This document shows positions 15,418 to 16,800 of a DNA stretch of 33,481 bases, in pieces. The position numbers were made by a program, and so were the translations under genes. This stretch comes from Ignavibacterium sp. GTDB lineage: Bacteria; Bacteroidota; Ignavibacteria; Ignavibacteriales; Ignavibacteriaceae. Under the pieces are notes generated by a model. The model was not told where the DNA came from, searched no databases, and saw only the letters and a program-made list of their open reading frames with translations. Every line of letters starts with the position of its first letter. Positions within the stretch are counted from its first letter, which is position 1. The stretch is taken from positions 1,475,731 to 1,509,211 of the forward strand of contig CP070637.1 of NCBI GenBank assembly GCA_020354005.1, read 5' to 3'.

Positions 15418-15849
15418 ATGAAATTATTATCAATACTGCCAATCTTTATTCTTCTTCCAAACTTCATATCAGCACAACAGGAAGATATTTTTGTGCCGTC
15501 TCTGCTAGATACTGTATTAAGATATCAGGGAATAAATCCTTATATGAATTACTACTATGATGATTTTGAATTATATTTCCCATTTAACTTTTCTGTTACA
15601 GAATCTGAACAATTGGTAGAGGGTGATCTATCAATATTACAACTCCGAACGGATTTAGCATTGTCATATCCAACATCATTTAAAACAAGCACTGTTGGAG
15701 CTTCAGATCACCTGATGTTACCATATTATAAGCAGTACCTGGAGAATTCAAAAATAGATCCCATAAGATATATACTTGGATTAGCACAAACAGCTGCCGT
15801 GGGATATATGGCTTATCGTCACATAAAAAAATATGGTTTTTGGAAATAA
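15418..15849 (+). CDS. small exported protein of unknown function
   Basis: A 143-residue protein with a clear signal peptide (MKLLSILPIFILLPNFISAQQ, in which AQ at 19-20 marks the likely cleavage). The mature part is rich in tyrosine and aspartate early (NPYMNYYYDDFELYFPF) and has one weak hydrophobic stretch near the C-terminus (about 118-133, ILGLAQTAAVGYMAY) followed by a basic tail. No known domain is recognised. It is separated by 117 bp from ppk2 and by 170 bp from the next exported protein, so its operon membership is uncertain. Confidence 0.7.
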   Translation: MKLLSILPIFILLPNFISAQQEDIFVPSLLDTVLRYQGINPYMNYYYDDFELYFPFNFSVTESEQLVEGDLSILQLRTDLALSYPTSFKTSTVGASDHLMLPYYKQYLENSKIDPIRYILGLAQTAAVGYMAYRHIKKYGFWK

Positions 15850-16019
15850 TCCTTCTTACAATTTAATATAATCTGCTTCCAGGCTTCACTTCAGCAAGCT
15901 TATCTACCACATATCACCATTTTAGTCCATTTCAATAGAAGGCAAAGAAGTAGCAGAACATAACTTCTGGAACTGCGTCCTAATTTATGATTGCTAATTA
16001 AAATTAGGAGCAAAATACC

Positions 16020-16718
16020 ATGAAGAAAAAATTAACTGTTTTCGTCGGTTTGACATTTCTAATTATATTATTTTTCACTTTCCAATCTTCAATTTCCAAA
16101 CCACATATAAATAACAATGAAAACTCGCACTTCTCTGAAATAGATACATTTGACTTTGACACAGAAGAATTTAAAAAAGAAATGGAGGAACTTCGTGAGG
16201 AGCTTAAGTCACTAAAAAAGGAGAAGATAAAAATTGAATTTGATGCTGAAAAGTTTCGGGAGGATATGGAGGAATTAGCAGTTGAGATGGAAAATCTCCG
16301 TAAGAAAGATTTCAAATTTCATTTTGACTCCGAACAATTTAAAGAGGATATGAAAGAGTTATCAATGAAATTGAAAGATAAAAAGATAGTCATTAAGGAT
16401 TTTGATTTTGATATGAGTGAATTCAAAGAACAGATGAAGGAATTAAAGAAAGAGCTGAAAGATATTAAAATCGAATTAAGGGATATTGATGACTTAAGTT
16501 TACTGGGTAAATTTATGAAAGAATTAAAGCTGGAGATGAAGAACGATGGTCTGATTGAGGATGAAAATGAAGAAATAAACTTAAAGTTGAATAAAGATGA
16601 AATTATCTTAAATGGTGAACGTGTTCCTGATGAATTATTTCAAAAATATATTGAACTCTATAAGGATCATTTTAACAAAGAACTGGGAGATGAATTCAGT
16701 ATCCATATTTATAAGTAG
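16020..16718 (+). CDS. membrane-anchored protein with four exact 28-residue repeats
   Basis: A 232-residue protein with an N-terminal hydrophobic segment (5-21), acting as signal or anchor, then a highly charged region. The core F-D-x-x-x-F-[KR]-x-x-M-[EK]-E-L starts at residues 46, 74, 102 and 130, an exact 28-residue period with no insertions. Each unit has a helix (FKKEMEEL-like) and a short alternating strand (KIKIEF, FKFHF, IVIKDF, IKIEL). The last ~50 residues (after 185) form a different segment (LKLNKDEIILNGERVPDELFQKYIELYK) that recalls C-terminal segments of Bacteroidota BlaR1-like M56 proteins, which I recall only loosely. An AGGAG site precedes the ATG. It probably projects into the periplasm; function unknown. 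Confidence 0.78.
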   Translation: MKKKLTVFVGLTFLIILFFTFQSSISKPHINNNENSHFSEIDTFDFDTEEFKKEMEELREELKSLKKEKIKIEFDAEKFREDMEELAVEMENLRKKDFKFHFDSEQFKEDMKELSMKLKDKKIVIKDFDFDMSEFKEQMKELKKELKDIKIELRDIDDLSLLGKFMKELKLEMKNDGLIEDENEEINLKLNKDEIILNGERVPDELFQKYIELYKDHFNKELGDEFSIHIYK

Positions 16719-16775: not shown

Positions 16776-16800
16776 AAGCCAGCAAAAGTCGCTGGCTTTT
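16776..16800 (+). terminator. rho-independent terminator after the repeat protein
   Basis: AAGCCAGC (16776-16783) pairs with GCTGGCTT (16791-16798) around a 7-base loop, followed by TTCTTATTT. This is a standard intrinsic terminator 58 bp after the gene. Confidence 0.85.

Follow-up and report, generated by a model that had tools for sequence, protein, structure and literature searches.

In the receptors BlaR1 and MecR1, the external sensor is the part of the protein that follows the last membrane helix, beyond the protease (PMC7593790). On the evidence of sequence comparison, the position of this outer sensor is occupied in a group of M56 proteins by the ectodomain family described here. The family also occurs as stand-alone proteins, mostly lipoproteins. 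We examined one stand-alone member, encoded in a 33,481-nucleotide stretch of the genome of Ignavibacterium sp. (hereafter the window), and find that its repeats are real and diverged. The protein is best interpreted as an orphan receptor ectodomain, with a function suggested by the context of its relatives.

The repeat protein and its gene

The open reading frame is a convincing gene. It is a single frame of 232 codons from ATG to TAG, with an AGGAG ribosome-binding site 9 nt before the start (Table 1). Compared with relatives in the genus, synonymous change is saturated and pN is ~0.3, which fits purifying selection acting on the protein. Against one relative (L037), identity is 49% over the repeats and 55% over the C-module. 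The copy in one genome (G001; L006/L038) is broken by two in-frame stops and split into two ORFs; the gene may be dispensable, or the assembly may be in error there. The hairpin scan returned two hits against 0.4 expected, both being the same hairpin, one per strand. The original prediction called the protein anchored; it does have one hydrophobic N-terminal segment, which could be a signal peptide or a membrane anchor.

Table 1. Features of the repeat-protein locus (window coordinates)
Feature	Position	Strand	Basis and remarks
143-aa neighbour	15418..15849	+	kept beside the repeat-protein gene in part of the family; synteny, probably no partner
Repeat-protein gene	16020..16718	+	232 aa; AGGAG at 16006-16010; genus orthologues; pN ~0.3
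Hydrophobic N-terminal segment, residues 4-24	16029..16091	+	sequence and lipobox scan; without lipobox
Repeat unit 1, residues 46-73	16155..16238	+	lag autocorrelation, family gap survey, hydrophobicity profile
Repeat unit 2, residues 74-101	16239..16322	+	lag autocorrelation, family gap survey, hydrophobicity profile
Repeat unit 3, residues 102-129	16323..16406	+	lag autocorrelation, family gap survey, hydrophobicity profile
Repeat unit 4, residues 130-157	16407..16490	+	lag autocorrelation, family gap survey
C-module, residues 161-232	16500..16715	+	common to M56 protein tails; D, KY, Y invariant in alignment
Terminator-like hairpin, then T-rich stretch	16776..16798	+	hairpin scan

Four repeat units begin at exactly residues 46, 74, 102 and 130, with zero indels, as originally described. 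Over residues 40-160, the mean BLOSUM62 autocorrelation at lag 28 is 2.13, with 42% identity. When the best lag of each shuffled sequence was taken as a control, the 99.9th percentile was 0.81 and none of 2000 shuffles reached the lag-28 score. Lags 7, 21, 35 and 56 are also prominent, as heptad-like helices under a longer period should produce. Any two units have 8-16 of 28 residues and 41-52 of 84 bases in common; the repeats are thus diverged, and the earlier claim that they are old yet have kept their spacing is a fair one.

In an average of 25 family units, hydrophobicity falls on positions 1, 6, 10, 13, 17 and 20, and then at 25, 27 and 1. Positions 3-20 have a periodicity peak at 100 degrees per residue, which is helical, and positions 25, 27 and 1 alternate, with a peak at 160 degrees. 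This pattern suggests that each unit is a ~19-residue amphipathic helix plus a strand rather than part of a continuous coiled coil. AlphaFold models of the protein, alone and with three relatives drawn from the set of related loci, were uninformative (pLDDT 41-43): both place one helix per unit, at a confidence too low for use. For a closed, leucine-rich-repeat-like alpha/beta solenoid fold, the models likewise stay at pLDDT 41-43.

The strict period does not hold as a family rule. Among 23 family members, the gaps between units are 14, 21, 25, 26, 28, 30 and 34 residues and longer, with 28 the commonest. In stand-alone members, 26 of 48 gaps are exactly 28 residues long, versus 1 of 14 in M56-linked members, a count that takes in one locus whose protease part is cut off (L056). 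Only some of the family thus keep the strict period. Unit number ranges from 2 to 5 or more and differs even between syntenic relatives.

Relatives with and without a receptor protease

Our family search returned matches in 45 of 97 related genomes. The family has no Pfam or NCBIfam name, and we found no paper on it among open-access papers on M56 tails in Bacteroidetes. Its full architecture is an N-module (~53 aa), two to five helix-strand repeats and a C-module (~72 aa). The C-terminal segment was rightly singled out as a separate module, and this C-module is the best conserved part among relatives (mean column identity 52%, four invariant residues). Its profile matches the window protein, stand-alone relatives and M56 protein tails. 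By the family tests, the window protein has both the C-module and the helix-strand repeats; the N-module profile does not match it at E 1e-3, and L037 is likewise without this module. Among syntenic stand-alone relatives, L050 has the N-module, repeats and C-module, and L002, L099 and L100 have the N-module without the C-module. The two module profiles have a common motif, NG..VP....KY (hhalign probability 87%, 21 columns), a weakly supported hint that they may be related to each other.

Candidate matches to named families were rejected. Pfam and NCBIfam matches of the window protein lie below cut-off and reflect coiled-coil composition; this includes SurA_N_2 (PF13623; residues 3-83), where the likeness lies in a hydrophobic N-terminus with a charged helix after it. 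That match scores 26.2 bits against a curated threshold of 28.5, the window protein has no isomerase domain, and we take the match as one of composition. PDB searches with the window protein and both module profiles returned chance-level matches only, the C-module has no consistent match in Pfam, and no viral contig with the family was confirmed.

The window's taxonomic family has the stand-alone form; in the sister family, the ectodomain is mostly the outer, C-terminal half of a BlaR1-like M56 protein of ~580-720 aa. Pfam M56 was confirmed in order-level fused loci L052-L055 (E 1e-27 to 1e-34), and the gene adjoining L052, L053 and L055 carries Penicillinase_R (E 1e-27). A BlaI-like start, PT.SELEILQ.LW, was also read by eye in the adjacent ORF of L054, L086, L087, L089, L092, L095-L098 and others. 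Beyond the order, the C-module is found in seven further genomes elsewhere in the phylum, mostly in long ORFs; five of six scanned proteins have Pfam M56, and the sixth (L090) is stand-alone. One match of this set, in a short ORF resembling another enzyme (L083), is probably due to chance. Two M56 proteins, of 999 and 880 aa (L084 and L087), carry the C-module twice in tandem.

Within the order, one genome has both forms, 26 have the stand-alone form only and 18 the M56 form only (Fisher p 0.01, uncorrected for kinship). This exclusion largely tracks the split between families; with the window's family set aside, p is 0.07. Resolution of the family tree is poor: on the direction of change, fusion versus fission, parsimony on this weak tree gives seven changes, of which only one is forced by well-supported branches.

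The window lineage lacks the protease. A Pfam scan found no M56 domain (PF05569) in the window protein, and neither its genome nor those of the five other genus members contain an M56 match under E 1e-10. The window genome is estimated to be 80% complete, so absence from it alone is weak evidence; across 61 genomes of the taxonomic family, there are three weak, short M56 matches only and no full BlaR1-like M56. By inspection, the two weak matches in the window genome resemble Ste24- and HtpX-type M48 proteins. There is no BlaI-type gene beside the repeat-protein gene among the window ORFs, and the best match to PF03965 in the genome (E 0.004) falls below cut-off. Several members of the taxonomic family are without the repeat-protein gene itself.

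The original prediction pointed to M56, anti-sigma or sigma-70 genes as neighbours. The M56 link holds in another form, as relatives are themselves M56 proteins with a BlaI-type gene beside them, but no sigma-70 or anti-sigma gene adjoins the window gene. The only anti-sigma-like case is at another locus, L004 (6576-8363 there): a 595-aa protein with similar charged C-terminal repeats and a start resembling that of an anti-sigma factor; no C-module was found in it. The 143-aa neighbour, which ends GYMAYRHIKKYGFWK and has no Pfam match, was rejected as a likely partner, as in many genomes it is present without the gene and away from the gene. Its adjacency probably represents synteny.

Lipoboxes in stand-alone proteins and receptors

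Among the 22 stand-alone proteins whose start is complete, a reading of the N-termini gives ~15 with a lipobox (12 by pattern; L002, L047 and L048 by eye). It is absent, together with the N-module, from the window protein and from L037 and L039 of the same genus.

In several fused M56 proteins, the last membrane helix itself ends in a lipobox (for example FAC/SSGN, AAC/STTN, AAC/SSNI). We found this in 14 of 45 different M56 ORFs (L009, L010, L011, L013, L014, L016, L131 and L132, and also L105, L116, L119, L122, L126 and L128) versus none of 148 other predicted helices (Fisher 2e-10). This p-value overstates the evidence: the proteins are related, L128 and L119 do not differ in this stretch, and the search pattern was broadened once the first cases had been seen. 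The contrast between last and other helices is still strong. Of the 14, eight are order-level proteins bearing this ectodomain, and the rest belong to other families with unrelated tails that look TonB-like by eye. It is as though the protease and the ectodomain were linked by an embedded lipoprotein signal peptide. Another clade (L020, L024, L025, L030, L031, L069) has YSSASA/KEN or similar in the same place, like a signal peptidase I site.

We found no paper combining BlaR1 with a lipobox among open-access papers. We tentatively propose, while judging it unlikely, that many BlaR1-like receptors of Bacteroidota have an embedded lipoprotein signal peptide as their last membrane helix, such that Lgt and LspA would lipidate the ectodomain and release it as a lipoprotein. 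Stand-alone relatives of the window protein would then be this product encoded by a gene of its own, and the window protein a further reduced form of it. If true, this would point to a new means by which receptors shed or anchor their sensors.

Candidate roles of the window protein

We hold with moderate confidence that the window protein is an orphan, N-terminally shortened ectodomain of a kind that elsewhere makes up the outer half of BlaR1-like M56 receptor proteases or occurs as a free lipoprotein, and that its repeats would serve as the C-module's spacer. The protein would be exported, the export side being predicted, and probably held at a membrane. Its helix-strand repeats would form a spacer of roughly fixed pitch carrying the C-module into the periplasm, where it would recognise a ligand or partner. 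Conservation and the variation in unit number point to this division between spacer and working end, and the known BlaR1/BlaI pathway suggests that the ectodomain is the signal-receiving part. In M56-bearing relatives, recognition by the C-module would control the protease and, via BlaI, gene expression; in the window lineage, where the protease is absent, the ectodomain would work alone, with recognition still its job. The C-module is not the sole useful part, because L002, L099 and L100 are without it yet kept. These C-module-less relatives count against an orphan ectodomain, as do the poor AlphaFold models, the stops in G001, the poorly resolved tree and the fact that M56/stand-alone exclusion largely mirrors the split between families.

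The same repeats could instead belong to a structural envelope protein that senses nothing, in which the charged repeats would build a rod or an oligomer to space or brace the envelope, capped by the C-module for oligomerisation or attachment. The heptad-like helices are highly charged, unit number differs between syntenic relatives as for a length-tuned spacer, and relatives without the C-module persist. However, these modules also occur joined to a receptor protease, both in the sister family and in other parts of the phylum, which makes a purely structural role less likely there, and C-module conservation exceeds what a rod cap needs. We regard this role as possible, if somewhat unlikely.

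A periplasmic accessory role in TonB-dependent outer-membrane transport or its regulation seems to us quite improbable. Three stand-alone relatives (L043, L045, L049) sit immediately upstream of, and on the same strand as, a gene whose product has a CarboxypepD_reg-like domain; beside L043 this product is a full TonB-dependent receptor. In L088, an OMP_b-brl_3 protein comes after the M56 gene. However, most relatives, and the window gene too, have no such neighbour, and genes of this kind are plentiful across the phylum. That the protein is a decaying, functionless remnant of a lost receptor is very improbable: the N-module, lipobox and protease are all missing, the G001 copy is disrupted and the gene is missing from several members of the taxonomic family, but pN is ~0.3 under saturated synonymous change across the genus, and the intact frame, clean ribosome-binding site and strict 28-residue spacing have been kept.

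The orphan-ectodomain reading places an unnamed repeat family: it forms the outer half of M56 receptors and can exist both with the protease and without it. Unlike BlaR1/MecR1-type M56 proteins (PF05569) with BlaI (PF03965), the window protein has neither a protease domain nor a BlaI neighbour, and unlike BlaR1, the family ectodomain gives no profile match to the penicillin-binding sensor. The likeness lies in the C-module following the last membrane helix, joined in full-length members by the N-module and repeats, and in the BlaI-type gene beside the tested order-level fused genes. Unnamed stand-alone lipoproteins of the same order (such as L050, L045 and L049) differ from the window protein in keeping the lipobox and N-module, and resemble it in their repeats, their C-module and, in part of the family, their syntenic place.
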